From Halichondria panicea (Eukaryota; Porifera; Demospongiae; Suberitida; Halichondriidae), in the NCBI RefSeq assembly GCF_963675165.1, contig NC_087377.1:17939018-18003017 (forward strand): DNA of 64,000 nucleotides, written 5' to 3'. Position 1 is the stretch's first letter. Each line of letters begins with the position of its first letter. Of the stretch, positions 8,306 through 63,774 are shown in pieces. The notes under the pieces are model-generated. The model was not told the origin of the DNA, did not search any database, and saw only the letters and a list, made by a program, of their open reading frames with translations. A program made the position numbers and the translations under genes.

Positions 8306-8370
8306 CTATAATCTGAGCACCAGTGCCAGACACAGAGTGAGCAGTACACTCAGGCAGGAGCAGGTGGTCA
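8306..8370 (-). CDS. GPI-type hydrophobic terminal exon downstream of A2
   Basis: A 65-base open exon preceded by a C-rich acceptor (taaccccctccag then TGACC). It encodes VTTCSCLSVLLTLCLALVL, then RL and a stop. It is the A2-linked copy of the terminal exon used by C1, with one codon deleted in frame. A phase-1 upstream exon is required, which matches family-A exon 8. A2 itself is a pseudogene, so this copy may be a relic. Confidence 0.5.
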
Positions 8371-8656
8371 CTGGAGGGGGTTACCAGGGTTACTAGGGTT
8401 AGTAGATTATCCTCGCCCCCTCTAACGAACCATTACCTGATGGACAGGGAACACTTGTACGCTCATGCTACTAGTAACAGAGCACCACCCACAGAACCAA
8501 TGTACTCTGAACTATAGATCAGTGGAGTTATCGAATTATTTTAATTTACATCAATCAATAAAGTGATTCTGATAATTAATACAATGTCATTGGAACTATA
8601 ATATACTTTACAGTCATTAAATACTACATTGAACAACTAGTCTTACAGATCCATTA

Positions 8657-11600
8657 TTATCTTCTCGGCTCTGCTAAACCGTACGCTGGGTTGTCAGAAG
8701 TCAGTACAGGGTCCAGAGTGAAGTCACCTTGGTCTGTAGTGTAAGCGCCTTTCTTCCTTCTTGACTTCACGAGCAGTAAACTGAGCAATAATATTATTAC
8801 AACCAGAGTTATATATGAGGAGGATGATGGTGGGAATCCCAATAGCCAGTCCAATAATAAACTCCATACTCATTGGTTCTGCAGAAGAATATAATAGAAC
8901 TGAAATACTTACTAAGCATTTCCGTGACGACCCACACTGATATCCCTGATAACCAAAAATGTTGCGCTATACGGTATACTTTATAACGTACCTGGGCCTG
9001 CATTGATCTCCACACTGATGTCCCTGGTAACGGTTCCGGCTTCATTCGTCCCCACACAAGTGTACGTGCCGGTATTGGCTGACGTAGCACTGTCAATAGT
9101 TACTCGAGACTTAAAAGGTTCGCCAGTAGGCGTGGAAATATCGATACCAGGTCCTGAAGAGAGCACATTGCCAACTTTACGCCATGAAATTGTCGGTCGG
9201 GGGAGCCCATAATCTCACACTCCACCTCCAGTTCAGCGCCTTCTATTGTGTTTGTCGATGAACTAAAGTTTGTGACAAACGGCTCGGCTGTAGAGGGGGT
9301 CAGGTAAATGTGGTGTGTGTGTGTGCGTGTGTGTGTGTGGTGTGTGTGTGCATTGCCTATAAATTAACTTACTGCAAAATACAAAAGTCTCTTGAGCAAA
9401 TTCCTCAGAATCACTTAAAAGTTCGCATCTGTACACTGCATCATCTTCCATTACGATATCAGACAGTTGTATCTGAAGGAAAAGAAGTTTGTACGTGAGT
9501 ATCCACCCCAGCCTTTGCGTTAAAATTGCTGGATTTAATCAATTGGGAAGGTAATTCTGAGAGCTATTGGGCTCTCAAAGATAAGTATACCTGAAATTAA
9601 ACCCACCTGGTCGGCAAAGGTTTGTGAGACTCTTAGGAAGTTCCTCTCTCCTGGAGTGATGACGTTGCGCCCCATTAGAAATCTTACTTGAGGCCGTGGG
9701 AAGCCGTTGGTTTGGCAAGTCATGGTGACATTGCTGGCATTGAGTAGACACATGGCAGCAGGGTTATCAATAACTGACAAGCTCAATGAAGAAATTAGAT
9801 CACTAGTGGGAACTGCAGGGAAAAATTAACCAAAAGCTAAAACAAAGATATCTCAATTGTACCTGGTACAGTAATGTACAAGTCTGGAAGAACCCCACTT
9901 CCAGCAAGATTGGTAAAGGTAGCAGAATAAACCCCTGATGTTTCATTGGTCAGATTAGTCACAGTCAACATAAACGTGTAAGGAGATACGGCATTAACAT
10001 CACTGCAAGAGTTGGTGATAGTGTATTGGTCTCCGTTAACAATGTTAGAGCCCTTGAAGGACCACTGTACACTCGGGCATGGGTCAGCCTCCACAGACAC
10101 AGGTACTGTCACCATGGTCCCAAAATCACCCATAATGAGAGCTCCAACTTGTCTGTCTCTCACTGCTCCAATGGCAGTCTCATTGAAAGCCAGGGCAGTG
10201 GGTGCAACTGTATAATGAAACAAACTGATATTGAACACACATAATTATACATGATTGTACATGGTAAATTAAAGATGCATAATAATTATAGCAAACTGCT
10301 TATAGAACATGTATACATTAAAATAAAAGCAATGGTATAACAATTAGCAATGGTATAAGGTATAATTATGTTACCTGGAGCTCTGACCTCCAACAACCAG
10401 TCAGCATTGTCTTCAGACACTATATTACTGACAAATCACTGGTACACTCCAGAGTGACTGACTTGAGGGTTTGCAATAGTCAGCATAGTGTCGTCAAAGA
10501 CAATTCCAACGAATGAAGAGTCAATTACATCTCCATTGAAGTACCACACTGTTGAGGTGGCAGGGTAGCCAGTGTTGGCACAGGAGAAGGAGGTAGCTGG
10601 GCCTTGTCCTACAATCACTTCACGTGTGTTTGAGGGATCCACTGTTATCACGGCTTTCCCTGTGTGTGTGTGTGTGTGTGAGTTTATCTCGTGTGTGTGT
10701 GTGTGCATGTGTGTGTGGGACAACTTACGTTGCACTGTGACTGTTCCACTACTGATAACTGACTTGGCCGTCTCTGCATTCCAGAGTGACTACCACTGGG
10801 GGAGGGGGGAGGTTTGTGATTATACCCACTCCTCCGTTGGAAACAGCGTTGGAACCACCACTATTAGTGAAAGTACAAACACGATTTAGTGTCCCTTGTG
10901 AAGAAACATAGCTGAACTCAAAGTCCTCATTCTCTCCCTCTGCAGAAAAAGCCGTGAGATCTCCTATTTCCTTGTACACAAAATCCATTCCATTTACTAG
11001 TCCAGTACCATTGACAAAATATGTCTGAGGGCTTCTTACTAGTTCGTGCATTCGAGCATTCCTTACTCCACAGCGATAATCGCGTGAGAAAGTCTCAATA
11101 TCTGTAATATAGGCCCATCTTCCACCCTCCAGAAACCTTACGATAGTACCGGTCAGGCTCTCGTCTAAAGGAGTTGCAGAATTGTCTTGAAACCACACGA
11201 TGTCTGGAAGTGGCTGCGAGTCCCCAAGCCTGCACTCAAGAGCAATGTCGATGCCAAATCCAGCAGTAGGAAGTGAAGTTGGTATAAATGTACGCTCTAC
11301 CTCAGTTGGCATAAAGCCACGGAAAACTGCAAAGAAAGAAAAATGATATTATTTACAATAATTATAGAGCTGAATTGCTTACATGCATATAGTGGACAGT
11401 GATGTCTCTACTGCGGATGGTTGCATTGAAGCCAGGCTCTCCAATGATGTTAGTAGCCTCACAGTGATAGATTACGCCAGCCGTGGAAGCATGTTCTCCC
11501 TCAGTGATATTTTGAAACAAGAAGTTACCATTCGAAAGCATAAAACCAGCGTCAACCACGTCATCTCCCCTGTACCAAGTCACGGTAGGTGTAGGGGTCC

Positions 11601-11835
11601 CAGTAACATCGCATTGTAGGCTAAGATCTGAATTAGATCCATCTTCATTGGTTGCAAAGACAACCACATCTTCTTGCTCACTGTTGAAACTAGGAGCCAC
11701 TCCTACTTCTGTATATATTAGTATGTGCCTATAATAAGAAGTTGATCTCTCACCTGTGTGTGCAGAGAACACAATATTGGTGCTGTAGATGCAGAGTAAG
11801 ATAAGAACTCCTCCACTTGCTGTCATGACAGCCAT
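8657..11835 (-). pseudogene. A2: family-A receptor pseudogene
   Basis: All nine family-A exons are recognisable: 11754-11835, 11383-11708, 10729-11326, 10375-10659, 9863-10207, 9607-9812, 9373-9472, 8992-9287, 8657-8878. Lesions: a 2-base insertion at the end of the first Ig exon; a net 2-base loss near the end of exon 3 (about 10757); TGA at 10436-10438 replacing the conserved Ig cysteine codon in VYQC; a 1-base loss in the I-set Ig near 9200; and a 4-base gain inside the transmembrane helix near 8806-8825. The tail is also shortened to one NPAYGL, lacking the YDTI and YETI segments of A6-A8. Exons 6-8 resemble A6 most. Multiple independent lesions make this a pseudogene, although the signal exon and splice sites remain intact. 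Confidence 0.9.
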
Positions 11836-11938
11836 TGGCTAGAACTGCATGTAGATATCACATAGCATGCTTCAATATAATTATACACAAAGACTTATAA
11901 GTCTTATATGATTGACTGGTGCACCACTAACTTCCAGG

Positions 11939-12057
11939 TCACTTTCAGCATTAGCTAAATAGCATTCTATGATATGTGTGGTTGATAACTCAGTGGACTC
12001 AGCACTTATATCAACCACACATATCACAGAATGCTATTTAGCTAATACTGAAAGTGA
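11939..12057. repeat. Inverted repeat in the A2 5' flank
   Basis: Arms of about 49 bases (11939-11987 and 12009-12057) around a 21-base spacer. Each arm carries one copy of the family-A promoter motif, in opposite orientations. Confidence 0.85.
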
Positions 12058-12060
12058 TTA
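12044..12060 (-). promoter_or_regulatory. Family-A shared promoter motif (A2)
   Basis: AATACTGAAAGTGATTA, about 210 bases upstream of the A2 ATG. It is displaced from its usual distance by the inverted repeat at 11939-12057. Confidence 0.5.
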
Positions 12061-12333
12061 CCATAGACAATACATGCAGCACTTCATAGCTATCAGTACA
12101 TGTATGTACACACCAGTGCTTCTTAGAATGGACAGACTTAATTGTGCAATCAGATTTGACTATGAAGAGAGTGCATGGTAAACACAGCAATCTCAATCCA
12201 CCACACACCCTCTGCCACACATTAAGGCCACACATACAGTTTGAATAACACCCACACACAAACCATGCACCCATGCATGAATATAGCATATTAAGGAAGC
12301 AGAGGAAAATAAATAATTATGTTAATTCAGACT

Positions 12334-12401
12334 CTATAATATGAGCATCAGTGCCAGACACACAGTGAGCAGTACACTCAGTAGACAGGAGCAGGTGGTC
12401 A
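12334..12401 (-). CDS. GPI-type hydrophobic terminal exon downstream of B2
   Basis: A 68-base open exon with acceptor cccaccccctccag then TGACC. It encodes VTTC, then SCLLSVLLTVCLALML, then IL and a stop. It matches the terminal exon of C1 and lies downstream of the B2 tail exons. Whether any transcript uses it cannot be seen from sequence. Confidence 0.5.
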
Positions 12402-12794
12402 CTGGAGGGGGTGGGTGAGGGGTTACCAGGGTTACTAGGGTTAGTAGATTATCTCGCCCCCTCTAACAAACCACCACCTGATGGACAGGGAACACTTGTA
12501 TGCTCATGCTACTAGTAACAGAGCACCACCCTCAGAATCAAACTCTGAACTATAGATCAGATCAGCATAAAATGTTCATTTATCATTCAAAACTAATAAC
12601 ACACAATGACTGCTGGTATATACAAAAAAACTAAAACGATTATTAGCAGGAAATTTTATACGTAGTTTACATTCAGTTCTATGATAATTATTATAATATA
12701 GTCTCACTCTGTGGGCTGTGTTGATCGATATCATTAATTCCTTTAGATTAAAGTAAATACAATTAATTTATTATATTATTTTGAGCAAACATAC

Positions 12795-13038
12795 CTGTTG
12801 TTGCCAGGATAGATATTTTCGTAATCTGAATGATTGTAGGCACATTATGATAAAGCTATACACACACACGCATGCACGCACATACACACGCACATGTGAT
12901 AGGGTTATTACATGCACAGTATTATGACAGATGGAATCATACCTCGAATATGTTCATATGTGTGCTCATCATTTGATTGGACACTGGCTGCATCATTAGG
13001 AGCTTGTATAACAGACATACCATATGCGGGATTCCTCG
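12795..13038 (-). pseudogene. Orphaned cytoplasmic-tail exons of B2
   Basis: Two exons, 12943-13038 and 12795-12825, are in frame and correspond to B4 tail exons. They encode [21 protein letters not shown] and DYENIYPGNN motifs. The donor that should link them to the B2 transmembrane exon is mutated, so they are probably unused. Confidence 0.65.
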
Positions 13039-13085
13039 CTGTGTGCATGTGATATATATTCAGTGAATAAAACATACACTATATT

Positions 13086-16000
13086 TTATGACTTGCAATT
13101 GTATGCAGTTTGGTTGGGATGCCAGGAATAAGAAGGTTTTCGTCTCGTGCAAACCAACAGTATAAGAATAAACAGTAGTATGATCACTATGACTCCAATA
13201 ACTCCAACCACAGACACAGCAATTACCACTTCGTTAACGTCACCTCCTATAATTATATAATTATAATTATAATAGGCTGGCAATTGGAATAATAAACCTT
13301 CTGTAGGTGGTGTGAGAATAGGTGGTGTGAGAAAGCTGATGGTGATGTTTGCGCTCACACCAGGGGTCAAAGTGCAAGAGTAGGTCCCAGTGTCTGTAGA
13401 TTGTGGATTGATGAACACGAGGTTATTGCCAACTTGAGTGGCAGAAGAGGGCAGAGTGAGTCGACCAACACGCACCCAGCGTAGAGTAAGGACATTACTG
13501 ACACTGGAGGAACAGTTGAGTTGTGTTCTCTGACCAGCAAATACTTCCCCGGGAGGACCGGCGACAGTGGGCGGTGAGGGTGCTGTGTGTGTGGGTGGAG
13601 GGGGAGATTAGACTCGTACAGTAGTTTTCCTGCACACCACTAGTCATTAAACAGTGTGTGCAAGATACAAAACACTACAGTGCATCCAGTCTAGAGAGTA
13701 GAATACAAAAATAGGTGAGTAGTTGTACTTAAATGTATCTCAAGATTGGAACATTTCTAAGAAATTGTGCTGATATACCATTGTATAGGTAAAAGAATAA
13801 GCTAAAACATGATTCAAAAATATTTCCCAAAAGTTGTTGTAGTGGAAAATAATTTTAGGTGATAATGGGGGTGATCGTAAAAAAATGTACGTAACATCAA
13901 TTATCTCCGGAACTAAAGTATTTCTGGACAAATTTTTCTTGTCAAAAGTTAGACAATTTATTCAAGCTTACTCTGTGTAATTTTTGGACCTTAGCCGTAA
14001 GATTTTCTACTATCTATAGATGTTGTGACAAAATTCCAAACCTTAGCCGGAAACCGTTGGCCTTTTTTCTCTCCCTATAACCGATTACCCACTATAACAA
14101 TTGTTTATTGTTTTATTAATCACCACAAACCCACCACCTTATGTTGTCATGGAAACATTTTTGGATATGTTGTAGTTTATTCATTCACCTACACAATGGT
14201 ATCAGCAGATGTTCTTAGAAATGTTCCAATCATAAGATATTTACATTTAAGTACAACTACTCACACATTTTTGGCTCTTTAGACTGGATGCACTGTATCT
14301 TACCTTGTGTGGAAAATTCTCCCTGAAAGAAGAACTGAGATATTCCCATCGCATTGACAGATGCAACACGTACGTCATACAAAGCACTCGGTATTAAATC
14401 AGTCAATATCACCATGGTAACATTGCCGGCCACACTCCTCACGAGAACGTCGCTAGGAGTGGTCCAATCATTGACATGCTCTTTGTATTGTACGAGGTAT
14501 TCGTCCACCTGACCCCCGGGAAACACCCAGGAAATTAGAGCCATTCGATTGGATACTTGGTCCACCGTGGGAGCGACTAAAATTGCCTGTGGTTCATCTG
14601 TGAGGGATGGCCTTGACGAAATCAATTGAAATGTCTTTTCTAAGCTTTCATAAAATCATAAAATTGTTGGCATTGGATCAACGGTACTGCATGGCCGTTC
14701 AAAGATGCTCTAATTCAGTAATGCTAAATATATAAGTTTTAAAGTAGAACTATACTACTAGAAAATCGGCTCTGTAACTATAGACTGTTCTGATGGTCCA
14801 AGGAATAAAATAAGTTAATACTCACCCAGTGACTGGGTCATGATGGTAATGGTGGCAGCCTCTCCTCTACCAGCTGTGTTCACAGCTACCACTTCAACTC
14901 TGGAGGGGGGGGGGGGAGAAAGCAATTGTAATAAATCCTTAGGTTCAAACAAATCTGCTCACAAAGAGAACAGAACGGATATTAGCTACTAGACTATTGT
15001 TAACAAATGCATTATATACATGTATTAGGAAACAATTGCTGATACTATACTATACTAAACTACAATGCCCATTATGTATACATACACTACCTACAGTAGC
15101 GAGATAGTAACTATGCAGACAATAACTAACTCACTCATATGAGGTGCTGCCCACAAGGTCGATTGGTGGACTGGGGGTCCTACCATTAAATAGTAACAGG
15201 GAGAGGTCAGACAGATCAGTAATCTCAATCTCACTGAATGTTGGAGCTCCTATTATTCTATAGCGCATGATGTACTGAGTGACTGGGCGACCACCATTAT
15301 CAGCCGGTAGCAGCCAGGAGAGACTTAGACCAGAGGCACTCACACCCTCGTCAGTCAGGTTAAGTGGCATTGAAGGAGCTGGGGGGGAGGATGAGGTGGT
15401 AGTGAATCATACACCCCACAATATACTCACGATCCACTAGCGTTTGATTGGATACAAAGTCTGAGAAATCTCCGATCCCCTGGGAGTTGCTCCCGGCAAC
15501 CCGAACGCTGTACCCTGACCCCTTATCCAGCTGAGTGAACGTGTATGTGAGGGTGTTAGGATCAGATACTATGAAAGTGCGAAAGTCAACGTCGTTGCTA
15601 TCACGGAGGCTGACAAACCAAGCTTCCTGTGGAGAGGTTGTAGCAACACTGAAAACAGGAGGCTGTAAGGAAGGGGGGCAATATGACATTGGCTAAGTGT
15701 GGGGTGTAAGGTGTGTGTGTGTGTGTGGATGTGAGTGTGTGTGTGTGGGTGGGTGTGGGTGTCCTTACCAGCCACTCTGCAACGAGAGTTGTAGAAGTTG
15801 GACTGGTCAGTGTAACCATACGAGGAGCACCAAGCCCTACACATCACATGACCAGTAATTAAGCCACATGGAAGAAACTGCCTACTATATATGTAATTAT
15901 TAGTAATGTTTGTAACAAAGGCTGGCTAACAAAACACACACACACTTACTTAGAGAGAGAGTCATGGCTGATATCATAGCAGATTCACTAGAGCCAACAG

Positions 16001-16331
16001 CATTGTTAACAGTCACTGTAATATTGAAGAGTGTAAATTCATTTAGACCAGGAATCTGGGTTGATTGCAGAGAACTGTCGCCAGTGAGAGGTATCTCTCT
16101 AACTCGTACTATTCCATCGAATACTTTCACTGTGACCCCGGTTATAGGGCTCAGTCCATCGAAGCCGTTAGTCCAGGAGAGGTCCAGACTAGTCTCTCCA
16201 ATATTGGAGACCATCAGGTTAGTGGGGGGATCAGGGGGAACTGTGTGTGGTGTGAGATGTGAGGGTGTGTGTGTGTGTGTGATATGTGAGGAGGTGTGTG
16301 TGTGTGATGTGAGGGTGTGTGTGTGATGTGT

Positions 16332-16365
<34 letters not shown>

Positions 16366-17479
16366 TGTGAGGGTGTGTGTGGGGGAGGCTTACCTTGAAT
16401 GATGACCTCCACACTGGCATTTGCAGAACCAACTACATTTGTTGCGACACAAGCGTAAGTACCGCCGCTGGTTGTAGTCAGTCCTGACCTCATTAGATTG
16501 GACGATCCACCAGCAGAGTTAATGATAGCTCCACCAGCGCCATTAGTCAGAAGTGACCTTTCATGGAACCAGGTTATAAAAGAGACTGGGACAGAGTCGG
16601 AGATACAGGAGAGAGATATGGTTCCAGTTATGAAGACCATGTTAGAGGCTGGATTACTAGACGCTATACTGGGTATATCTGCAGAGGAGGATATGACATA
16701 ATACAGACAAATATGTCATTATCATCTTACAGTTAACGATCAAGCTTCCAGAGTCTTCAAGAAAATCTCCATTTTGATTGCTAGTCAGTCGACAAGTATA
16801 TACTCCAGCTTGGTCTCTTTGTACGTTCGATAATTGTGGTATTTGAAACGTAGAAAATAGTTCCCCGGCTGGATTGTACCACTGTCGTAGGAATGTCCCT
16901 GGTCGGTGTTGGTCGAGACACAGCCTAGCCTTATATCCCCTCCCTCTGTGACTACCCCATTATCTAGGATACTAACAATCGGTGCAGAAAGGCCTGTAAT
17001 TAGGGCAAGAAATAATTAATAGTATCATATCAAACTTGGATAGCTATATAGCCACTTACCAGCTGGGTAAATGAAATCACTGGCGCCGCCGCATTGAAGG
17101 GAGACAGGTATTCCCAGAAGAAAGAAAGCATCAGCATCAGTGATTACCAAGACACCAGGCATTGAAGTAACAGATACTCTATTTGTTCCGTCAGTAAGAA
17201 CCATATCAGTTTGAGCAATCCAATGTACATCAGTTGCGAACTGTCCACCTATAATACATCGTATGCAGGAGGTAGCCAGTGAAGCATTTATAGAAAGATC
17301 ATCAGTCAGATCGAAAGTTTCACTGCAAATCTGACCATGGACACCTGTATAGAGGTGGAATAGAACCTCATGACAATAATCATATTGCTCTAATATTATT
17401 ATTATTGTTGGCTACTCTGAAACTTACAAGGCATTAAGCAGAAGGAGAGCAGAGCTATCAGAGCTATACCAACAGCCAT
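13086..17479 (-). pseudogene. B2: family-B receptor, damaged
   Basis: Exons: 17428-17479 (signal [17 protein letters not shown]), 17060-17344, 16731-16993 and 16394-16678 (three Ig), 15950-16240 (FN3), 15769-15836 plus 15431-15662 (FN3), 15135-15378 plus 14826-14899 (FN3), 14304-14597 (FN3), 13298-13582 (Ig) and the transmembrane exon from 13246. The second Ig exon is 263 bases, one fewer than in B4, from a lost base near 16907. This shifts the frame to a stop within the same exon. At the end of the transmembrane exon the donor GTAAG seen in B1 is ACAAT, so the frame runs on to AYNCKS and a stop at 13086. The intron after exon 14304-14597 carries a 618-base foldback element. The region 14.6-16.7 kb is very close to B3, showing recent duplication or conversion. 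Confidence 0.82.
13678..14295. mobile_element. Tc1/mariner-type non-autonomous element (MITE) in B2 intron
   Basis: Inverted termini of about 140 bases, beginning CAGTGCATCCAGTC and ending GACTGGATGCACTG, flanked by TA on both sides (13676-13677 and 14296-14297). CAGT ends with a TA duplication are typical of Tc1/mariner relatives. No transposase reading frame is present. B4 lacks it at the matching site. It sits a few bases past the splice donor of the FN3 exon 14304-14597. Confidence 0.8.
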
Positions 17480-17716
17480 CTTGCTCAAACTATTAAATGG
17501 CTTCATGTAATATACGTAGCACTTTACTATAAGGAAACCACTAAACACCTTGAAATTTATCAGCCCACACACCCACACACACACATGCACACATGCACAC
17601 AAGCGTAAGAACTGGAAATAATAAGAACACATAATAGGCCAGGACCACGTTAGTAGGCATGGGGCCAATAGTCAAACACACAGATACCATGTAACTTAAT
17701 TGCAATAATTATGTTT

Positions 17717-19607: not shown

Positions 19608-19638
<31 letters not shown>

Positions 19639-21683: not shown

Positions 21684-21732
21684 CTGCAGAAGAATAGAAT
21701 TGAGTTATTATACTAAGTTAGAAATAACATAC

Positions 21733-28888: not shown

Positions 28889-29038
28889 CAACCCCAGGTA
28901 TGTTATGAAGTAGGTCTATACTATACCGTATATATAGCGCTAAATTTTCGGTTATTAGGGATATCAGTGTGGGTCGCCATGAAAATGGTTAGTATGTCAT
29001 TTCTAACTAAAATTCGTTTCAATAACATTCTTCTGCAG

Positions 29039-29391
29039 ATTCATTGAATATGGAGTCTATTATTGGACTGGCTATTGGGATTCCCGCTATCATTCTCCTC
29101 ATAACTCTGGTTGTAATAATATTATTGCTCAGTTTACTGCTCGTGAAGTCAAGAAAGAAAGGCGCCTACACTACAGACCCTGTCATCTATGACACTATAG
29201 ACGACAACAGCTCCCCAGATCCTGTACTAGCTTCTGTCAACACAGCGTATGGTCTAGCAGAAGAGAACACATCAGGTGGCAATGCAGAATATGAAACCAT
29301 CGAAGGTGACTTCACTCCGGACCCTGTACTGACTTCTGACAACCCAGCGTATGGTCTAGCAGAGCCGAGAAGAAATGAAACTCTAGTATAA
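29039..29391 (+). pseudogene. Isolated family-A transmembrane/tail exon (inverted copy of A4 exon 9)
   Basis: A 353-base exon on the plus strand with acceptor ttctgcag. It encodes the helix (IIGLAIGIPAIILLITLVVI) and a tail with VIYDTI, TAYGL, AEYETI and NPAYGL. Protein identity with the A4 exon is complete. No upstream Ig exons exist on this strand; the copy stops nine bases into the preceding Ig exon. It is therefore a gene fragment or an assembly duplicate, not a gene. Confidence 0.85.
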
Positions 29392-29621
29392 GACTAGTTG
29401 TTCAATTGTACCTTATTATAGTTTCGTATAATTTATAAATCCAGTGACATTGTTTCTTTTAGCATAATTATATTGATTAATGCTGATGATGTAAAAAAAT
29501 GATTAAAATTGCAAACTATGTATATACTGATCTATAGTTCAGAGTACATTGGTTTTGAGGATGGTGCTCTGTTACCAGTAGCATGTGTGTAGTTACATTT
29601 ATATCTGTGCTCCCTAATTTC

Positions 29622-29675
29622 TAGTCGGGCGCCGCCTCCCTCTACCTTTGCCCGGAAGGAGGCGGCGCCCGACTA
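29622..29675. mobile_element. 54-bp foldback element with 9-bp target duplication (left copy)
   Basis: Near-perfect palindrome with TAGTCGGGCGCCGCCTCC at one end and its complement at the other, flanked on both sides by CCTAATTTC (29613-29621, 29676-29684). Terminal TAGTYGGG and a 9-bp duplication are shared with the element at 62063-62191. Confidence 0.75.
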
Positions 29676-29974
29676 CCTAATTTCAATGGAATTTAATAGC
29701 ATATTAAATGGGGTTAACAACAAGGAGCAGGCCGCAATGACGTCACTCATCTCAACGCATGTGCACTAAAGTTGAAGCCTCGTGGCAGTCTCAGAACTAT
29801 TAGCAGTCACTTTGTGAGCATATCAGACGTCCATCATTCATTCATTCATTCATTCATCTTCTGTCTACCAATTCTCTCTACCGATTAGTGCCCGGTCATC
29901 GGCCATGGACCCCCCCCCCTCAGTTGGCAGGTACAGAACACCTAAGCCTTTAGCCAAAAGTTACTTAGACACCA

Positions 29975-31081
29975 CCGCAGCTGGCACGTCGATAACCCCT
30001 CTCCATTCTAATACGAATGTGAAAAATCAGGGGCACAATTGACTGCCAAGGTGGTGTAGGATCAATACATATAGTCGCTAACCATGCCTTATACGTACCT
30101 CATGCTCAGTGTAGCTATAGACAATAAATTAATAAATTATATCATGTCGCTGCATGGAGAGTATGGCAAACTCAACAAGTAGCAACAGAGTATGGCAAAA
30201 TCAACATAGCAACAGAGTAAGCCTATGTACGTGCATATAGATGCTTTATTCGTATACCTGTATAGACAATACCTATAATGATCATGTCGCTGCATGGACT
30301 CAAACAGATAAGAGTATGAGTATGGCAAACTCAACAAATAGCAACAGAGTATGGCAAACTCAACAATGGCAGGGTATAGCAAACCACTGCCAAGGTGGTG
30401 TAGGATCAAATGCTTTATACGTAGTTAAGTACCTAGCTATATACAGTACATGTCATGTCGCTCCACGGACAGCGGCCAACTCAACAAGGTACGGCAAACA
30501 CAGCAAATGGCAGGGTGATGGCAGACCCAACAAATGCCAGGTACCGGCAGGGTGATGGCATACCCACAAATGCCAGGGTGATGGCATACCCAACAAATGC
30601 CAGGGTAATGGCAGACCCAGGGTGATGGCATACCCAACAAATGCCAGGGTAATGGCAGACCCAGGGTGATGGCATACCCAACAAATGCCAGGGTAATGGC
30701 AGACCCAGGGTGATGGCATACCCAACAAATGCCAGGGTAATGGCAGACCCAGGGTGATGGCATACCCAACAAATGCCAGGGTAATGGCAGACCCAGGGTG
30801 ATGGCATACCCAACAAATGGCAGGGTGATGGCAGACCCAACAAATGCCAGGGTGATGGCATACCCAACAAATGGCATACTAACAAACTGCCGAGTGTGCA
30901 TGTTAATAAATGCCGACTGTAGCAAACGCAACAACTGGCAGGGCGTGGCAAACCCAGCAAATGAAAGCACCACAGGAGACACAAAGTTATTATACCAGGC
31001 AGACTAGATCAGTAATTTCTCATCAGCCCCCTCATCACTTTTAGCCTTCCCCCCAAAAGTTCATTATTCATTATTTGTTAG
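29975..31081. repeat. Direct repeat, left copy, with 44-bp minisatellite
   Basis: Copy of 31282-32391 offset by 1310 bases and differing by a 3-base indel near its start; I saw no other difference. Positions 30540-30860 hold about five units of 44 bases built from CAAATGCCAGGGTAATGGC and AGACCCAGGGTGATGGCATA. Long open frames here are by-products of the repeat. Confidence 0.9.
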
Positions 31082-31281
31082 NNNNNNNNNNNNNNNNNNN
31101 NNNNNNNNNNNNNNNNNNNNNNNNNNNNNNNNNNNNNNNNNNNNNNNNNNNNNNNNNNNNNNNNNNNNNNNNNNNNNNNNNNNNNNNNNNNNNNNNNNNN
31201 NNNNNNNNNNNNNNNNNNNNNNNNNNNNNNNNNNNNNNNNNNNNNNNNNNNNNNNNNNNNNNNNNNNNNNNNNNNNNNNNN
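31082..31281. other. Assembly gap, 200 N
   Basis: Exactly 200 Ns, a conventional placeholder length, between the two direct-repeat copies. True size unknown. Confidence 0.98.
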
Positions 31282-32391
31282 CCGCAGCTGGCACGTCGAT
31301 AATAACCCCTCTCCATTCTAATACGAATGTGAAAAATCAGGGGCACAATTGACTGCCAAGGTGGTGTAGGATCAATACATATAGTCGCTAACCATGCCTT
31401 ATACGTACCTCATGCTCAGTGTAGCTATAGACAATAAATTAATAAATTATATCATGTCGCTGCATGGAGAGTATGGCAAACTCAACAAGTAGCAACAGAG
31501 TATGGCAAAATCAACATAGCAACAGAGTAAGCCTATGTACGTGCATATAGATGCTTTATTCGTATACCTGTATAGACAATACCTATAATGATCATGTCGC
31601 TGCATGGACTCAAACAGATAAGAGTATGAGTATGGCAAACTCAACAAATAGCAACAGAGTATGGCAAACTCAACAATGGCAGGGTATAGCAAACCACTGC
31701 CAAGGTGGTGTAGGATCAAATGCTTTATACGTAGTTAAGTACCTAGCTATATACAGTACATGTCATGTCGCTCCACGGACAGCGGCCAACTCAACAAGGT
31801 ACGGCAAACACAGCAAATGGCAGGGTGATGGCAGACCCAACAAATGCCAGGTACCGGCAGGGTGATGGCATACCCACAAATGCCAGGGTGATGGCATACC
31901 CAACAAATGCCAGGGTAATGGCAGACCCAGGGTGATGGCATACCCAACAAATGCCAGGGTAATGGCAGACCCAGGGTGATGGCATACCCAACAAATGCCA
32001 GGGTAATGGCAGACCCAGGGTGATGGCATACCCAACAAATGCCAGGGTAATGGCAGACCCAGGGTGATGGCATACCCAACAAATGCCAGGGTAATGGCAG
32101 ACCCAGGGTGATGGCATACCCAACAAATGGCAGGGTGATGGCAGACCCAACAAATGCCAGGGTGATGGCATACCCAACAAATGGCATACTAACAAACTGC
32201 CGAGTGTGCATGTTAATAAATGCCGACTGTAGCAAACGCAACAACTGGCAGGGCGTGGCAAACCCAGCAAATGAAAGCACCACAGGAGACACAAAGTTAT
32301 TATACCAGGCAGACTAGATCAGTAATTTCTCATCAGCCCCCTCATCACTTTTAGCCTTCCCCCCAAAAGTTCATTATTCATTATTTGTTAG
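31282..32391. repeat. Direct repeat, right copy, with 44-bp minisatellite
   Basis: Second copy of 29975-31081; minisatellite at about 31850-32170. It ends at TTCATTATTTGTTAG, after which 32392-32484 is unique and includes a hairpin (CCATAGATTGAA, TTCAATCTATGG). Confidence 0.9.
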
Positions 32392-32484
32392 GTGTGGCCT
32401 AAATTAATGAGCCACACCCACTGTATATTAGGCAGTGGTCTACAATTAATGAGTTACACCATAGATTGAAGAGTTCAATCTATG

Positions 32485-33531
32485 GTACCTGCCAACTGAG
32501 GGGGGGGGGTCCATGGCCGATGACCGGGCACTAATCGGTAGAGAGAATTGGTAGACAGAAGATGAATGAATGAATGAATGAATGATGGACGTCTGATATG
32601 CTCACAAAGTGACTGCTAATAGTTCTGAGACTGCCACGAGGCTTCAACTTTAGTGCACATGCGTTGAGATGAGTGACGTCATTGCGGCCTGCTCCTTGTT
32701 GTTAACCCCATTTAATATGCTATTAAATTCCATTGAAATTAGGTAGTCGGGCGCCGCCTCCTTCCGGGCAAAGGTAGAGGGAGGCGGCGCCCGACTAGAA
32801 ATTAGGGAGCACAGATATAAATGTAACTACACACATGCTACTGGTAACAGAGCACCATCCTCAAAACCAATGTACTCTGAACTATAGATCAGTATATACA
32901 TAGTTTGCAATTTTAATCATTTTTTTACATCATCAGCATTAATCAATATAATTATGCTAAAAGAAACAATGTCACTGGATTTATAAAATTATACGAAACT
33001 ATAATAAGGTACAATTGAACAACTAGTCTTATACTAGAGTTTCATTTCTTCTCGGCTCTGCTAGACCATACGCTGGGTTGTCAGAAGTCAGTACAGGGTC
33101 CGGAGTGAAGTCACCTTCGATGGTTTCATATTCTGCATTGCCACCTGATGTGTTCTCTTCTGCTAGACCATACGCTGTGTTGACAGAAGCTAGTACAGGA
33201 TCTGGGGAGCTGTTGTCGTCTATAGTGTCATAGATGACAGGGTCTGTAGTGTAGGCGCCTTTCTTTCTTGACTTCACGAGCAGTAAACTGAGCAATAATA
33301 TTATTACAACCAGAGTTATGAGGAGAATGATAGCGGGAATCCCAATAGCCAGTCCAATAATAGACTCCATATTCAATGAATCTGCAGAAGAATGTTATTG
33401 AAACGAATTTTAGTTAGAAATGACATACTAACCATTTTCATGGCGACCCACACTGATATCCCTAATAACCGAAAATTTAGCGCTATATATACGGTATAGT
33501 ATAGACCTACTTCATAACATACCTGGGGTTG
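32485..33531. repeat. Right arm of the 1-kb inverted repeat
   Basis: Reverse complement of 28889-29934. It covers the A4 transmembrane exon, its 3' flank and the last intron up to the edge of the I-set Ig exon. Confidence 0.9.
32744..32797. mobile_element. 54-bp foldback element with 9-bp target duplication (right copy)
   Basis: Mirror copy of 29622-29675 inside the right arm, flanked by GAAATTAGG on both sides. Confidence 0.75.
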
Positions 33532-37557: not shown

Positions 37558-40500
37558 TCACAATCTCACTCCGTAGGCTGCATTGCTGGATACCATAACT
37601 GCTCCACCTGTAACAGTGATTATCATTAAAAGTTAATTAGTAGCACGTGCACAAACCTTCACCGTCGTTGTTGCTGTTGTCAGGATCGATAGTCTCGTAA
37701 AGCACCTCATCTATATCTGAAGGATAGGGACATACATACACACACACACACACAAGGAGCACGTGAGAAAATGCTCCAGTGTCTTACTACGCGGATTCTG
37801 TATCGTCTAGCTATGTACAATTTGTGCCATATATGTCAAACCGCTAAGTGCTGCTTACATTGTACTTAATGATATTCACTATTAGTAGATCAAACGCCGT
37901 TATCAGCCGCACATGTACAAAACACTTAGCACATTACAAACAAGGAAACATGGTCTAACGATAGTGATTCCGCAATACTATGCATAGTAAGACGCTCCAT
38001 CTCCTCATCTGCTCCTGTCCACACCACACACACCTCACACACACTCCACAAATACACACCATACAATGTGATAGGGCTATTAAATATAGTGTATGCACTA
38101 ATAATGATCGGCTAATGTTAAACTCAGACAGATGGAATCATGCACCCCTTTTGTACCTGGAATATCTTCATATACGTCCTCATCATTTGATTGGACACTG
38201 GCTGCATCATTAGGAGCTTGTCTAACAGACAAATCATATGCAGGATTTCTGACAGCATCGTTAGACAAATCATATGCAGGATTTCTGACGGCATCGTTAG
38301 ACAAATCGTATGCAGGATTTCTGACTGCATCAGACAAATCATATGCAGGATTTCTGACTGCATCATTAGACAAATCGTATGCAGGATTTCTGACTGCATC
38401 AGACAAATCATATGCAGGATTTCTGACTGCATCATTTGACAAATCGTATGCAGGATTTCTGACTGCATCATTAGACAAATCGTATGCAGGATTTCTGACT
38501 GCATCATTAGACAAATCGTATGCAGGACTTCTGACTGCATCAGATAAATCACATGCAGGATTTCTGACTGCATCATTAGACAAATCATCAGGATTTCTGA
38601 CTGCATCATTAGACATACCATGTGCAGGATTCCTTGCTGTGCATGTGATACTGATCAGAACACACACAATACTTAGTGTAAGCAATACTTACCTGCACTT
38701 TGGTGGTCATTGGAATAAGAAGGTTTTCGTCTCGTACAAACCAACAGCATCACAACAAAGAGTAGTACGATCACTATGATTCCAATAACTCCAACCACAG
38801 ACAAAGCGATTACCATTTCGTTAACGACACCACCACTTGGCCCTATACGCATGCACGAACATATCTAATAGGCTGGCAATTGGAATAACAAACCTTCTGT
38901 AGATGGTGTGAGGAAGCTGATAGTGATGTTGGCACTCACACCAGTGGAGATCGAAATGCAAGAGTAGGTCCCTGTGTCCGTAGATAGTGGGTTGGTGAAC
39001 ACGAGGTTATTGCCAACTTGAGTGGCAGAAGAGGGCAGAGTGAGTCGACCAACACGCACCCAGCGTAGAGTAAAGACATTACTGACACTGGAGGAACAGT
39101 TGAGTTGTGTTGTCTCACCAGCAAAGACTTCCCTGGGACCGGAAACAGTGGGCGGTGAGGGTGCTGTGTGTGTGTGGAGGGGTGTGTGTGTGTGTGTGAG
39201 TGGAGGGGGAGTTGTGCATGTGTAGATGTGTGTGATGTGTGGTGTGTGCATGTGTAGATGTGTGTGATGTGTGATGTGTGGTGTGTGGGTGGAGGGGGAG
39301 ATTAGACTCGTACAGTAGTTGTCCTGCACACCACTAGTCATACTAAACAGTGTGTGCAAGATACGAGCACTAGCTTACCTTGTGTGGAAAATTCTCCCTG
39401 AAAGAAGAACTGAGATGTTCCCATCGCATTGACAGATGCAACACGCACGTCATACGAAGCACTGGGTATTAAATCAGTCAACATCACCATGGTAACATTG
39501 CCGGCCACACTCCTCACAAAAATATCGTTAGGAGTGGTCCAATCATTGAGCCGCTCTTTGTATTGTACGAGGTATTCGTCCACTTGTCCCCCGGGAAATT
39601 CCCAGGAAATTAGCGCAGTTCTATTGGTTATTAGATCCACAACGGGAACGACTAAAATTGGTTGTGGTTCATCTGTGAGAGTCATTAAATTTGTAAAATC
39701 AATATTTTTGGTTTGTTTTGATTCCCCCTCCCACCCATTTAATCAATGGTTCGAGAACTATTTCAGCTGCCATAACTTGAATTCCATGTACTCAATTGTT
39801 CAGAAAATGATGTCATCAAATTCCATATTTGAGAGATAAGAGACTTGCCAATATGGCCACACCATAGATAATAATACCCCATAGTCCAAGGCCGAAAAAT
39901 TAATAATTTTTAGAGACTAGAGTTGGCTCTGTAACTAGAGTTCTGATGGGACTAACACAAAACTTACTCAGTGATTGGGTCATGATGGTAATGATGGCTG
40001 CATCTCCTCTACCAGCCGTGTTCACAGCCAATACCTCAACTCTGGGGGGGGGGGGGCAGAAAGCATTTAGAAAAGAAAGTGGTAAAAGTTGTTTGAATGT
40101 TCACTATTGAGCAATTGCACGAATGTACTAGACACTCTCATTTAATACGTAAATATACACTTATGTATATAGTTATATGCAGACACTCACTCATAAGAGT
40201 TGCTGCCCACAAGGTCGGCTGGTGGACTGGGGGTCCCGCCATTAAATAGTAACAGAGAGGTCTCTGTCAGAACAATCTCACTGAATGTTGATACTCCTAC
40301 TATCCGATAACGCATGACGTACTGAGTGACTGGGCGACCACCATTATCAGTCGGTAGCAGCCAGGAGACAGTTAGACCAGAGGAACTCACACCCTCGCCA
40401 ATCAGATTAAGGGGCATGGAAGGAGCTGAGGGTGGGGGGTAGTGAGAATAAAATTTTATACTATCACTACAGTAATACTCACGATCCACTAGCGTTTGAT

Positions 40501-42943: not shown

Positions 42944-43011
42944 ATAATCTGAACACCAGTGCCAGACACACAGTGAGCAGTACACTCAGTAGACACAGGA
43001 GCAGGTGGTCA
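42944..43011 (-). pseudogene. Broken GPI-type exon downstream of A5
   Basis: Same position and acceptor (cccaccccctccag then TGACC) as the other copies, but a 2-base insertion gives VTTCSCVY and a stop, and the original stop is also altered. It lies beside a pseudogene. Confidence 0.65.
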
Positions 43012-47143: not shown

Positions 47144-47211
47144 CTATAATCTGAGCACCAGTGCCAGACTCAGAGTGAGCATTACACTCAGTAAACAAGA
47201 ACAAGTGGTCA
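47144..47211 (-). CDS. GPI-type hydrophobic terminal exon downstream of A6
   Basis: A 68-base open exon with acceptor cccctcccctccccctccag then TGACC. It encodes VTTC, then SCLLSVMLTLSLALVL, then RL and a stop. Several substitutions relative to C1 (V to M, VC to LS) keep it hydrophobic and in frame. It lies 360 bases beyond the A6 tail stop. Its phase fits the A6 I-set Ig exon, which would place small residues (NAGPV) before the hydrophobic tail. Confidence 0.6.
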
Positions 47212-47570: not shown

Positions 47571-49691
47571 TTATACTAGAGTTTCATTTTTTCTCGGCTC
47601 TGCTAGACCATACGCTGGGTTGTTAGAAGTCAGTACAGGGTCCGGAGTGAAGTCACCTTCGATGGTTTCATATTCTGCATTGCCACGTGATGAGTTCTGT
47701 TCTGCTAGACCATACGCTGCGTTGTCAGAAGTCAGTACAGGATCTGGGGAGCTGTTGTCTTCTATAGTGTCATAGATGACAGGGTCTGTAGTGTAAGCGC
47801 CTTTCTTCTTTGACTTCACGAGCAGTAAACTGAGCAATAATATTATTACACCCAGAGTTATGAGGAGGAGGATGGTGGGAATCCCAATAGCCAGTCCAAT
47901 AATAAACTCGATACTCAATGGTTCTGCAGAAGCTAGAAGAATAGAACTGAAATACTAATTTTAGTTAAAATTGACATTTCCGTGCCCACCCACACTGATA
48001 TCCCTGATAACCAAACATTTCACACTATACAGTATACTTTATAACATACCTGGGCCTGCATTGACCTCCACACTGATATCCCTGGTAACTGTTCCGGCTG
48101 CATTAGTCCCCACACATGTGTATGTGCCAGCATTGGTTAGCGTAGCACTGTCAATAGTTACTCGAGACTTAAAAGGTTCGCCAGTAGGCGTGGAAATATC
48201 GATACCAGGTCCTGAAGAGAGCACATTGCCATCTTTAAGCCATGAAATTGTCGGTGTGGGGATGCCCCTAATCTCACACTCCACCAGTTCAGCGTCTACT
48301 ATTGTGTTTGTCGATGAACTAAAGTTTGTGACAAACGGCTCGGCTGTAGAGGGGGTCAGGTAAATGTGGTGTGTGTGTGTGCGTGTGTGTGTGTGGTGTG
48401 TGTGTGTATTGCCTATAAATTAACTTACTGCAAAATACAAATGTCTCTTGAGCAAATTCCTCAGAATCACTTAAAAGTTCGCATCTGTACGCTGCATCAT
48501 CTTCCATTACGATATCAGACAGTTGTATCTGAAGGGAAAGAAGTTTGTACGTGAGTATCCACCCCAGCCTTTGCGTTAAAATTGCTGGATTTAATCAATT
48601 GGAAAGGTAATTCTGAGAGCTATTGGGCTCTCAAAGATAAGTATACCTGAAATTAAACCCACCTGGTCGGCAAAGGTTTGTGAGACTCTTAGGAAGTTCC
48701 TCTCTCCTGGAGTGATGACGTTGCGCCCCATTAGAAATCTTACTTGAGGCCGTGGAAAGCCGTTGGTTTGGCAAGTCATGGTGACATTGCTGGCATTAAG
48801 TAGACACATGGCAGCAGGGTTATCAATAACTGACAAGCTCAATGAAGAAATTGGATCGCTAGTGGGAACTGGAGGGGAAGAATAACCAAAAGCTAAAACA
48901 AAGATATCTCAATTGTACCTGGTACAGTAATGTACAAGTCTGGAAGAACCCCACTTCCAGCAAGATTGGTAAAGGTAGCAGAATAAGCCCCTGATGTTTC
49001 ATTGGTCAGATTAGTCATGGTCAACATAAACGTGAAGGGAGATACGGCATTAACATCACTGCAAGGGTTGGTGATAGTGTATTGGTCTCCGTTAACAATG
49101 TTAGAGCCCTTGAAGGACCACTGTACACTCGGGCATGGGTTAGCCTTCACAGACACAGGTACTGTCACCATGGTCCCAAAATCACCCATAAAGAGAGTAC
49201 CAACTTGTCTGTCACTCACTGCTCCAGCAATGGCAGTCTCATTGAAAGCCAGGGCAGTGGGTGGAACTGTGTAATAAAACAAACTGATATTGAATAAATA
49301 ATAATGTGAATTTTAACAGAGTATAATGCATGTACATGTACGTAGCAAATATAAACTGACACGTACATCACAAGCAAACGTAAGTAGTGGTATATGTTAC
49401 CTGGAGCTCTGACCTCCAACAACCAGGCAGCATTGTCTTCAGACACTGTATTGCTGACAAAGCACTGGTACACTCCAGAGTGACTGACTTGAGGGTTTGC
49501 AATAGTCAGTGTAGTGGGGTCAAAGACAATTCCAACGAATGAAGAGTCAATTACATCTCCATTGAAGTACCACACTGTTGAGGTTGCAGGGTAGCCAGTG
49601 TTGGCACAGGAGAAGGAGGTAGGCATAGCAGAGCTTGATCCTACAATAACTTCACGTGTGTCCGAGGGATCCATTGTTATCATAGCTTTCC

Positions 49692-52292: not shown

Positions 52293-52355
52293 TGGCTAGA
52301 ACTATACACACTAATTATAATAAGGCCTAAGTTGTTTATTTTTAGTTATAGATCT

Positions 52356-52730: not shown

Positions 52731-52798
52731 CTATAATCTGAGCACCAGTGCCAGACACACAGTGAGCAGTACACTCAGTAGACAGGAGCAGGTGGTCA
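52731..52798 (-). CDS. GPI-type hydrophobic terminal exon downstream of A7
   Basis: A 68-base open exon; the acceptor ends ccccctttag before TGACC. It encodes VTTC, then SCLLSVLLTVCLALVL, then RL and a stop, the same protein as C1. It lies about 320 bases beyond the A7 tail stop. The phase fits the A7 I-set Ig exon. Confidence 0.6.
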
Positions 52799-53120: not shown

Positions 53121-53918
53121 TTATCTTCTCGGCTCTGCTAAACCGTAAGCTGGATTGTCAGAAGTCAGTACAGGGTCCGGAGTGGAGTCACCTTCTATGG
53201 TTTCATATTCTGCATTGCCACCTGATGTGTTCTCTTCAGCTAGACCATACGCTGCATTTACAGATATCACAACAGGATCTGGGGAGCTGCTGTCTTCTAT
53301 AGTGTCATAGATGACAGGGTCTGTAGTGTAGGCGCCTTTCTTCCTTCTTGACTTCACGAGCAGTAAACTGAACAATATTACAACCAGAGTTATGAGGAGG
53401 ATGATAGCGGGAATCCCAATAGCCAGTCCAATAATAGACTCCATACTCAATGAATCTGCTGCAGAAGATGATAGAACTGAAATTCAAATTTTAGTTAAAA
53501 TTGACATACCGTCTAGCATTTTCATGACCACCCACGCTGATATCCCTGATAACCGAAAATCGCGCTATACGGTACACTTTATAACATACTTGGGCCTGCA
53601 TTGACCTCCACACTGATGTCCCTGGTAACGGTTCCGGCTTCATTCGTCCCCACACATGTGTACGTGCCAGCATTGGCTGATGTAGCACTGTCGATAGTTA
53701 CTTGAGACTTAAACGGTGCATCAGAAGGCGTGAAAATATCGATACCAGTTCCTGAAGAGAGCATATTGCGATCTTTAAGCCATGTAATTGTCGGTGGGGG
53801 AATGCCCATAATCTCACACTCCACCTCCAGTTCAGCGCCTTCTATTGTGTTTGTCGATGAACTAAAGTTTGTGAGAAACGGCTCGGCTGTAGAGGAGGGA
53901 GGGGGGTCAGGTAAATGT

Positions 53919-53952
<34 letters not shown>

Positions 53953-56549: not shown

Positions 56550-56612
56550 TGGCTAGAACTATACACACTAATTATAATAAGGCCTAAGTTGTTTATTTTT
56601 AGTTATAGATCT

Positions 56613-56629
56613 AATACTGAAAGTGATTA
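56613..56629 (-). promoter_or_regulatory. Family-A shared promoter motif (A7)
   Basis: AATACTGAAAGTGATTA, about 64 bases upstream of the A7 ATG. The flank to about 56870 is near-identical to those of A3 and A6. Confidence 0.55.
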
Positions 56630-57118
56630 AAACAACAACATGCAACAGAGATCTATCTGAAAATAACACACCCAATATCTAGTGTATGTACACATCTATA
56701 ACTACACAATACTTCTTGGAAAGGACAGACTTGCAGGACTGCAATCAGACTTGACTAAGATATGACTTTTGTAGACTACAGTGACTTCAGGTCAGCTATC
56801 TGCATGCCATAGATCTATGATCTGACCACCCCACACACCCCCACAGACTTGCATTGAATCAACACTCACACACAAACCATGAAATGGGAGCACAGATATA
56901 AATGTAACTACACACATGCTACTGGTAACAGAGCACCATCCTCAAAAAACCAATGTACTCTGAACTATAGATCAGTATATATATAGTTTGCAATTTTAAT
57001 CATTTTTTTACATCATCAGCATTAATCGATATAATAATAATTATGCTAAAAGAAACAATGTCACTGGATTTATAAAATTATAACGAAACTATAATAAGGT
57101 ACAATTGAACAACTAGTC

Positions 57119-61440
<4,322 letters not shown>

Positions 61441-61514
61441 TGGCTAGAACTGCATGTAGACAACAGTACACAGTGAATGCTGGTATGCTACTGTTATAGG
61501 TTGTTTATTTAGCT

Positions 61515-61531
61515 AATACTGAAAGTGATTA
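61515..61531 (-). promoter_or_regulatory. Family-A shared promoter motif (A8)
   Basis: AATACTGAAAGTGATTA, about 75 bases upstream of the A8 ATG, in a flank closely matching A4. Confidence 0.55.
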
Positions 61532-61927
61532 TAGACTCATCTGAAAATGACAGCACATGCAACACAAGTACAGTGTATGTACACATCTATAACTACAGTC
61601 AATGCTTCTTGGAATGGACAGACTTGCAGGGCTGCAATCAGACTTGACTAATAAGATATGACTAGACAGACTGTGCATAATAATTTCTCTCCAGTTCAGT
61701 GACTTCAGTCAGCTACTATCTGACATATGATCTATGACCTGACCACCCACCCCATGACGCCCCCACAGATGTGTACAGTGCTTTGAATCAACACCCACAC
61801 AAACCATGAAAAGGGATCAGAGATAGAAATGTAACTACACACATACACACACGCCAGTCCTATATGAAAACTAGAATATAAAAACTTAGAAATGAAAACA
61901 AAAACTTGAGATGTGTTAATTTTGACT

Positions 61928-63774
61928 CTATAATCTGAGCACCAGTGCCAGACACACAGTGAGCAGTACACTCAGTAGACAGGAGCAGGTGGTCACTGGA
62001 GGGGGAGGGGAGGGGGTGTGTTTAAGGTAGTACAGCTAGCGAGGAGTTAGTAAGCAAACACATAGTTGGGTGTGGCCGACCTCATCATTAAGAAAGGAGG
62101 TTGCGGGTTTCAACATGCTATCAATGAAGTAAGACATTAGGCTTGAAACCCGACCTCCTATCTTAACGGGAGGCCGGGCCACATCCAACTAGCAAACACA
62201 CAATATACCGTATAGCGTGTAATTTTCGTGGGGCAAAATATTTGTGGTGGTTGGAGGTCTGACCACTAATATTTTACCCACGATTGAAGTGACCTTGCCT
62301 ACTTTTACCTGCAGTGCAAGCAGCAACCACGAAAATATTACCCACGAAATGTCTCAATATTGCTGAACCACGAATATTTTGTCCCCCGACAATTACCCGC
62401 TATACGGTATACACAGAGTTAGGGTTTCCTTGTTGTTAAATGCTGTTAGCTACCTATTACTATAATGTTTTGTAAGCATCAAACATATGCAACTTTGCGA
62501 GGCCATGCAAGGTTGATCAATTCGCAACGCAAAACCAAAACACAATAGTTAGATCACAAAAGTTAATTTTCTCAGTGCTGATTTGGCAAGATTTTTCACC
62601 CGCAAAATATTGTAGTGACACACACACACATACACACAGTTGTAGTCTCACCTGAGCCTCCATTGCCACCACTGTTATCACCCACTGTGCAACAAGAGAA
62701 TAATTATAGTGTAACCAACCGTTTCACACAACAATGCTTCACAGTATACACACACACACACTAGGCCAGGCTTCACAATAGCTTCCAAACTAGGAGTTTA
62801 TAGCACACAGTGTATACACTGGACTAGCAGTCTCATGAATCTGCTGCCCTTCTAAGGGGTCTTGATTGTTATTGCAAGAGTCTCATAGCGGCTACCATGC
62901 AATCTGCAACTATATCTACCTAGCTGCACCAGGCCACTATTATGTAACAAAGCCTAGCTGGGTAGCTAGCTACTAGTATTATACTCACTGGGAGTTGTAA
63001 ACTGACTGGCAGCCGCAGTACTCCCCAACTGATTCTCTGCTCTGAGCTCAACGTTGTATCGAGTGTTTTCCTCAAGTTCTAACACATCCACTGTGAGGCT
63101 TCTCTCACTAGGCCCAGCAGTGCCATCCCTGACAACAGTTGAACCACTAGTAGCTGCTTGTATAGTGTAGGAGAATTGAACGAGAGGGATATTAATGTTG
63201 TCAGGGTCAGAGTAGGTCCACGAGACAGTTAAGATGCTGCCAGAGATAGTTGCCGTGACGTCAGTAGGTTGAGCAGGACCTCCTACAAAAAAACACAACA
63301 CACAGTTAATACAGAACATGCTCCATAACTAGATTCTCTGCCAAATACTTCACATTTTTCCATACCACACAAACAATCAAACACGACGTGTAATAGCATA
63401 ACATTGATTGTTTGTACTTTTACATTTGCTATCTTAATCCGTTTTATCCTTACACTTGCATTAAAGCCACTTACTGCCAACATGGACGATGAATGATCTT
63501 GACACAGTGACATCTCCATTAGTGGCAGTACAGTCCACCGTGGCTCCATTCTCTCCATTAGTGGCGGAGCTAAATGTTACCAATCCTGTGATGTTGTTTA
63601 CAGAGATTTGCTCAGACACATCTGAGTTGATTGTGAGGGTGGGTGGGGGATTTCCCACGGTAGCACAGTTCAGAGTTCCCCCCATCCCCTCTAACAACAC
63701 ACAGGTGTAGGAGGAGGTGGTGGTCTCAGTGCATACTAGACCAGTGCTGGGTTCAGCAGTGAACATAGGTGGGT
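61928..63774 (-). CDS. C1: Ig-FN3 protein with GPI-type C terminus (partial, 5' end outside window)
   Basis: Exons seen: 63475-63774 (Ig: LNCATVG, VDCTATN), 62989-63282 (FN3: PTDVTATISGSILTVSWTYS, YNVELRAENQ), 62652-62684 (linker MGDNSGGNGGS), 61928-61995 (terminal). All boundaries are phase 1 and the frame reaches its stop exactly at 61928. The end reads a small-residue linker, VTTC, then a hydrophobic stretch (CLLSVLLTVCLALVL), RL and stop. With no basic stop-transfer this is the usual pattern of a GPI-attachment signal, so the protein is probably GPI-anchored; a tail-anchored form is less likely. More exons lie beyond 64000. The last intron contains two foldback elements. The predicted last exon needs transcript support. 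Confidence 0.72.
62063..62191. mobile_element. Foldback element with 9-bp target duplication
   Basis: Inverted arms of about 48 bases beginning TAGTTGGGTGTGGCC and ending GGCCACATCCAACTA, with identical flanks GCAAACACA at 62054-62062 and 62192-62200. Ends and 9-bp duplication match the small palindromes at 29622 and 32744. No coding capacity. Nine-base duplications are typical of Mutator-like elements; the assignment is tentative. Confidence 0.78.
62204..62411. mobile_element. Foldback element with TATACCGTATAGCG ends
   Basis: Inverted ends of about 37 bases (TATACCGTATAGCGTGTAAT at the left, complement at the right) around 130 bases with further internal complementarity. A TA duplication is possible. 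Fragments of the same end sequence occur in the last intron of most A genes. Confidence 0.7.

Follow-up and report, generated by a model that had tools for sequence, protein, structure and literature searches.

A candidate GPI-signal exon recurring in a tandem array of immunoglobulin-type receptor genes of the sponge Halichondria panicea

Closely related immunoglobulin-type ectodomains in Halichondria panicea appear to be joined to different kinds of membrane anchor: the gene C1 ends in a short exon that most likely constitutes a genuine GPI-type signal exon, whereas its paralogue C2 runs into a transmembrane tail of the type carried by the neighboring A genes. The structure of the exon is read from the sequence, and the anchoring is predicted from it. 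This contrast between C1 and C2 is a stronger finding than the possible alternative use of further copies of the exon by the genes A6 and A7, on which the original prediction of GPI-anchored receptor isoforms had centered. For the distribution of the exon as a whole, we lean modestly toward an explanation in which a GPI terminal exon of C1-type genes has come to lie behind A and B genes as a tandem-duplicated passenger, its use by A6 and A7 being possible.

The window, a stretch of 64,000 nucleotides, spans positions 17939018-18003017 of NC_087377.1 (contig C1) in a 131.5-Mb, 39-contig genome across which Ig domains are numerous. The genes of interest occupy the minus strand throughout and, as located by tblastn with exemplar exons, follow one another from high to low coordinates in the order C1, A8, A7, A6, A5, B3, A4, A3, B2, B1, A2, A1, B0. 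In an A gene, a signal-like exon (N terminus MAVMTASGGVLI.., judged by eye) precedes several Ig exons, after which come an I-set exon and a single exon encoding the transmembrane (TM) segment and the tail. Among eight proteins submitted to Pfam, Ig families were matched by A and B exons and fn3 by C1; the TM-tail exon had no match in this set. The A-gene version of that exon contains tyrosine motifs, and VIYDTI in its tail would fit the ITIM consensus.

The window contains six copies of the GPI exon, each encoded by the minus strand and located at the coordinates originally predicted, and two more are found elsewhere on contig C1. Where the frame is open, the translation is TTCSCLLSVLLTVCLALVLRL or differs little from it. 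The last exon of C1 (61928..61995) reads TTCSCLLSVLLTVCLALVLRL behind a C-rich acceptor with TACTAAC 52 nt upstream; the copy behind A7 (52731..52798) is identical to it in sequence, and the copies behind A6 (47144..47211) and B1 (12334..12401) read TTCSCLLSVMLTLSLALVLRL and TTCSCLLSVLLTVCLALMLIL, respectively. The predicted length of 68 nt applies to C1, A7, A6, and B1, but not to the copy behind A2 (8306..8370), which carries a 3-nt in-frame deletion and measures 65 nt. Behind the pseudogene A5, the copy (42944..43011) is broken as anticipated, having gained 2 nt by insertion and lost its stop. TACTAAC lies 29-52 nt upstream of the acceptor in all six window copies. Outside the window, one copy extends from contig C1:17916045 downward, its frame interrupted after LCLA, where a short palindrome has been inserted, and the other, 1.5 Mb off, from contig C1:16402803 downward; with the exceptions of this interrupted copy and the one behind A5, the contig copies are open to the stop (6/8). 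A genome-wide DNA search, confined to the best candidates (eight scored), returned the six window copies, the two same-contig copies, and one 27-bp partial match. A core pattern allowing up to three mismatches recovered 7/8 copies (A2 was missed) plus one three-mismatch site on contig C12, the backwards control of the pattern giving one match; neither of these two genome-wide searches revealed a further good match. When all 8077 AG dinucleotides on both strands of the window were scanned for a following phase-1 tail of 15-30 codons, at least as hydrophobic as these exons and free of D, E, K, and H, only ten qualified, five of which are GPI exons and five (GT)n repeats; the recurrence of the exon exceeds what chance would give.

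Since the exon closes the reading frame of C1 and no alternative terminal exon was seen by eye in the stretch read, C1 appears to be the clear home of the exon. Its 3′ part, on the minus strand and ordered by eye, comprises an Ig-like exon (63475..63774; Ig_2 E=0.0011, below Pfam's cut-off), a fibronectin type III (FN3) exon ending ..TTP (62989..63282; Pfam fn3 E=1.4e-7), and a 33-nt linker exon encoding MGDNSGGNGGS (62652..62684; phase 1 on both sides, acceptor cacag, donor gtgaga), after which the GPI exon completes the gene in frame, as had been proposed for a Gly/Ser/Asn linker. All exons of C1 within the window are open, and the gene seemingly extends past it, with open reading frames in which two Ig-like stretches and, near 65.8 kb in window numbering, a signal-like peptide MKLLVLLTACVLC.. 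are recognizable by eye. The paralogue C2 (contig C1:17813176-17813932) has Ig and FN3 exons with 84-85% protein identity to those of C1, the FN3 counterpart being located at contig C1:17813633-17813932. About 65 bp past this exon lies an A-type TM exon (81% identity over query residues 1-82), and close to where the FN3 exon ends the DNA likeness switches within a few bases from C1 to the intron and TM exon of A7. C1-like Ig and FN3 exons are thus joined to an A-type TM tail, and closely related ectodomains therefore occur with each kind of anchor.

The exon is also found in a gene 1.5 Mb off, an A/B chimera in which B-type exons precede A-type ig4, ig5, ig5b, and I-set exons, an A gene being represented by its C-terminal half. 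The I-set exon ends NGSS, and the GPI exon follows directly, ~160 bp on. A tail-like exon lies farther 3′ without a TM exon, and comparison of the A6 TM exon with the stretch bearing the far GPI exon gave only chance-level matches, hence no TM remnant, between the I-set and tail exons. The first B-type exon seems frameshifted because it was matched in two frames, and the gene, which is partly damaged, may itself be a pseudogene. In C1 and in this far gene, the exon would supply a lipid-anchored C terminus.

A6 and A7 were described as intact, with the exon 320-360 bases beyond the TM exon, and both points hold: nine exons checked in each gene are free of stops, and the distance from the TM stop to the GPI exon is ~360 nt in A6 and ~323 nt in A7. 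On the minus strand, the I-set exon of A6 (48050..48343; I-set E=8.5e-15) is followed by the TM and cytoplasmic exon (47571..47923), and that of A7 (53590..53886) by its equivalent (53121..53458, 5′ end approximate). A computed join of the I-set donor to the GPI exon removes 838 nt in A6 (48050 to 47211) and 791 nt in A7 (53590 to 52798), yields ISVEVNAGPVTTCSC.. and ISVEVNAGPMTTCSC.., respectively, and leaves the frame open to TAG. The TM exon (by eye) and the GPI exon (computed) are both in phase with the I-set donor. The phase match invoked in the original prediction is thereby confirmed for A6 and A7; it is weak evidence, however, because the junctions read in this receptor family are phase 1. 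Between the TM stop and the GPI exon, ATTAAA is present in A6; the corresponding gap of A7 contains neither AATAAA nor ATTAAA, only CATAAA, which is unremarkable since either hexamer occurs in only 29% of shuffled versions of this gap. Past the GPI stop, AATAAA is found 390 nt downstream on the A7 side (52335..52340, minus strand), at 61509 in C1 (418 nt), 46598 in A6 (545 nt), and 7737 in A2 (568 nt), with none before the next gene after the B1 copy.

Homology shows that tandem duplication of the array has spread the exon, together with its acceptor and flanking sequence, to the intervals separating A and B genes, so that the copies behind A7, A6, A5, A2, and B1 would be passengers of the duplication unit. 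Among 13 intergenic stretches compared, six of them as queries, the GPI exon belongs to a module that gaps downstream of all three gene types (A, B, and C) have in common, and the homology of copies continues through the flanks to the start of the next gene; on the C1 side, similarity to other gaps begins only ~20 bp before the exon. This sharing of flanks irrespective of the upstream gene supports the passenger explanation, as does the disagreement between the state of a copy and that of its host. Of the hosts that are open, C1 (window exons), A7, and A6 have open copies, and so do the broken A2 and B1, the latter with a frameshift in its second Ig exon; of the three broken hosts with a copy in the window, only A5 has a broken one. 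No copy accompanies A8, A3, and A1, which are open in the exons checked, or A4, which has a stop in ig1. A8 has a deletion junction (56909..56916, minus strand) at which the module, ~220 bp of A7, is gone, and the junction is identical in A4 (~32828-32835); in an A gene at contig C1:17.75 Mb, similarity ends ~80 bp before the position of the exon. These losses likewise favor a passenger. The broken copy beside A5 had been taken as a sign of selection on use, an argument not upheld in view of the open copies behind broken A2 and B1 and of the deletion shared by open A8 and broken A4.

Sequence conservation points both ways. The upstream 100 bp stay within 4.4 percentage points of exon identity in 10/10 pairs among A7, A6, A5, B1, and A2 (lower in eight), as would be expected of a passenger. 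A hand tally of 15 exon changes, A5 left out, also argues for this explanation in that coding constraint is not significant: 7/15 are synonymous (expected fraction 0.342, P=0.22) and 1/15 is disruptive (expected 0.235, P=0.10), and selection on the exon thus gains no support from this side either. Against it, the downstream 100 bp are less identical than the exon, often far less, in 13/15 pairs once C1 is added (exceptions, C1-A2 and A7-A6), as constraint or gene conversion would bring about; gap events are more numerous downstream than in the exon in 15/15 window pairs (100 versus 68 bases). The pairs lack independence, and the flanks downstream of the A5 and B1 copies apparently form a separate lineage, so that conversion or recombination with an endpoint at the exon accounts for this drop as well as constraint does. 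Also against a mere passenger, the A6 copy, the most diverged in the window, yet retains frame, acceptor, and branch site, and the C1 and far exons are identical at 53/62 positions while their flanks can be aligned only with many gaps. The private exon changes of A6, counted by hand, comprise 4/6 synonymous (P=0.11) and 0/6 disruptive ones (P=0.20); its private upstream changes (29/103) were set aside, as a 27-bp internal repeat misaligns there.

It is less probable, though worth serious consideration, that A6 and A7 maintain the exon for use as an alternative gene ending; skipping of the TM exon would then trade the tyrosine-motif tail for a GPI anchor and give a non-signaling or sheddable receptor. 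Both joined tails place N-A-G nine residues ahead of the hydrophobic core, TACTAAC lies 39-40 nt from the two acceptors, and the far gene offers a precedent for an A-type I-set exon directly before the GPI exon; the downstream conservation pattern fits as well. Yet both endings occur together in just two A genes whose exons are open, A8, open in the exons checked, has lost the exon, broken A2 and B1 have kept theirs open, and the tallied changes reveal no significant coding constraint. At its end, the I-set exon reads GGCCCA (Gly-Pro) in the four A loci bearing a copy and ACCCCA (Thr-Pro) in the two loci sharing the deletion, a contrast that might suggest use of the exon but counts as a single event because A8 and A4 share that deletion. 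Host integrity does not favor alternative use by A6 and A7, with which the flank comparison may be compatible. The original GPI-isoform proposal is supported in part: the sequence of the exon fits a GPI signal, C1 is completed by it, the A6 and A7 joins are in frame, and in the far gene, frame-damaged in its B-type exons, the exon comes directly after an A-type I-set exon. The proposal's argument from selection on use is not upheld. Under the favored passenger explanation, the exon behind A6 and A7 still looks splice-competent and in frame, and some transcripts may use it.

As to the nature of the exon, a scan by simple, uncalibrated rules found a small-residue site, a short spacer, and a C-terminal hydrophobic run in the C1, A7, A6, and far tails. 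GPI signals had been characterized as lacking basic residues, but 4/5 open window copies, those of C1, A7, and A6 included, end ..LVLRL and carry an Arg second from the C-terminal end. An Arg at this position is unusual in a GPI signal and could mean that the exon encodes a tail-less membrane segment instead; alternatively, it might be kept as an upstream part of the next gene, given that the five copies preceding an A gene sit 436-599 bp before its start exon. We regard either possibility as improbable. The ending of the far copy, ..LALML, contains no Arg, most contig copies have kept their frame to the stop, the A2 deletion preserves the frame, and the regions upstream of A7 and A4 resemble the others yet lack the exon.

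Exchange of membrane anchors is familiar from vertebrate Ig-superfamily genes. NCAM-120 versus NCAM-140/180, and likewise CD58/LFA-3, derive a GPI or a TM ending from a single gene by choice of the terminal exon; A6 and A7 are candidates for this arrangement and would match these genes if both endings were used. If so, vertebrate Ig-family GPI/TM switching and paired-receptor logic would reach a tandem array of invertebrate type. Among invertebrates, the Alr allorecognition complex of Hydractinia is an Ig-superfamily gene complex with which the array may be compared. In the mammalian CEACAM (CEA) family, GPI-linked members are reported to have arisen through stop codons and other mutations inside the TM exon, and the likeness lies in a fast-duplicating Ig receptor family whose close paralogues differ in membrane anchorage (PMC2832619, PMC5856374). 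The sponge genes differ in that an exon of its own encodes the GPI signal and in that the TM end of C2 is a fusion to an A-type tail. As for a CEACAM-like origin of the GPI exon from a TM exon, the A6 TM exon matched the far stretch with the GPI exon at chance level. Even without switching in A6 and A7, C1, C2, and the far chimera would amount to a reshuffling of anchors among closely related ectodomains. A wider proposal, which we consider doubtful, is that the anchor is an exchangeable module, fixed as GPI in C1 and TM in C2; A6 and A7, with both endings in one gene, would alternate through their choice of last exon between a receptor with a tyrosine-motif tail and a decoy anchored to lipid. 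Among titles on sponge Ig receptors and on GPI/TM isoforms, none describes such a GPI exon array. A search for the GPI transamidase of the organism produced one partial match to Peptidase_C13 (E=9.2e-10), which contains an internal TAG and may represent PIG-K or legumain.

The start regions of the A genes, the receptor genes of the minus-strand tandem array that combine Ig, I-set and transmembrane/tail exons, are very compactly spaced. In five of the six A genes examined (A8, A7, A6, A5, and A1), an AATAAA motif lies 30–65 bp upstream of the start exon, as exemplified by the region 61444–61509; the exception is A2. An AG is located just upstream of the ATG at A-gene starts.

The region 29032–33388 contains a repeated A4 transmembrane exon and repeated open reading frames. 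A tblastn search with exemplar exons revealed an inverted copy of this exon at 29032–29388 (100% identity), and the reading frames at 30137–31003 recur at 31447–32313, flanking a run of N. These repeats represent either a recent duplication or an assembly artefact. In the B-type receptor gene B3, the tail (38098–38688) harbors about a dozen repeats similar to NPAYDLSNDAVR, a tandemly expanded tyrosine motif.

Outside the window (contig positions prefixed C1:), the partly damaged A/B chimera 1.5 Mb away features a tail-like exon (..AHGLSKENTS.., C1:16402249–16402076) 3′ of its putative GPI-signal exon; no accompanying transmembrane exon was found, and a genome search returned no other match to the tail-like exon. 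A GPI exon copy adjoining a B gene is cut by a short palindromic, MITE-like insertion (C1:17915996–17916045). Calx-beta domains are found in sponge aggregation factors, and the gene beyond C2, the gene C1 paralogue, displays a weak Calx-beta match (L042, about 2440–4001; C1:17.815 Mb; E=4.1e-5, below the Pfam cut-off).
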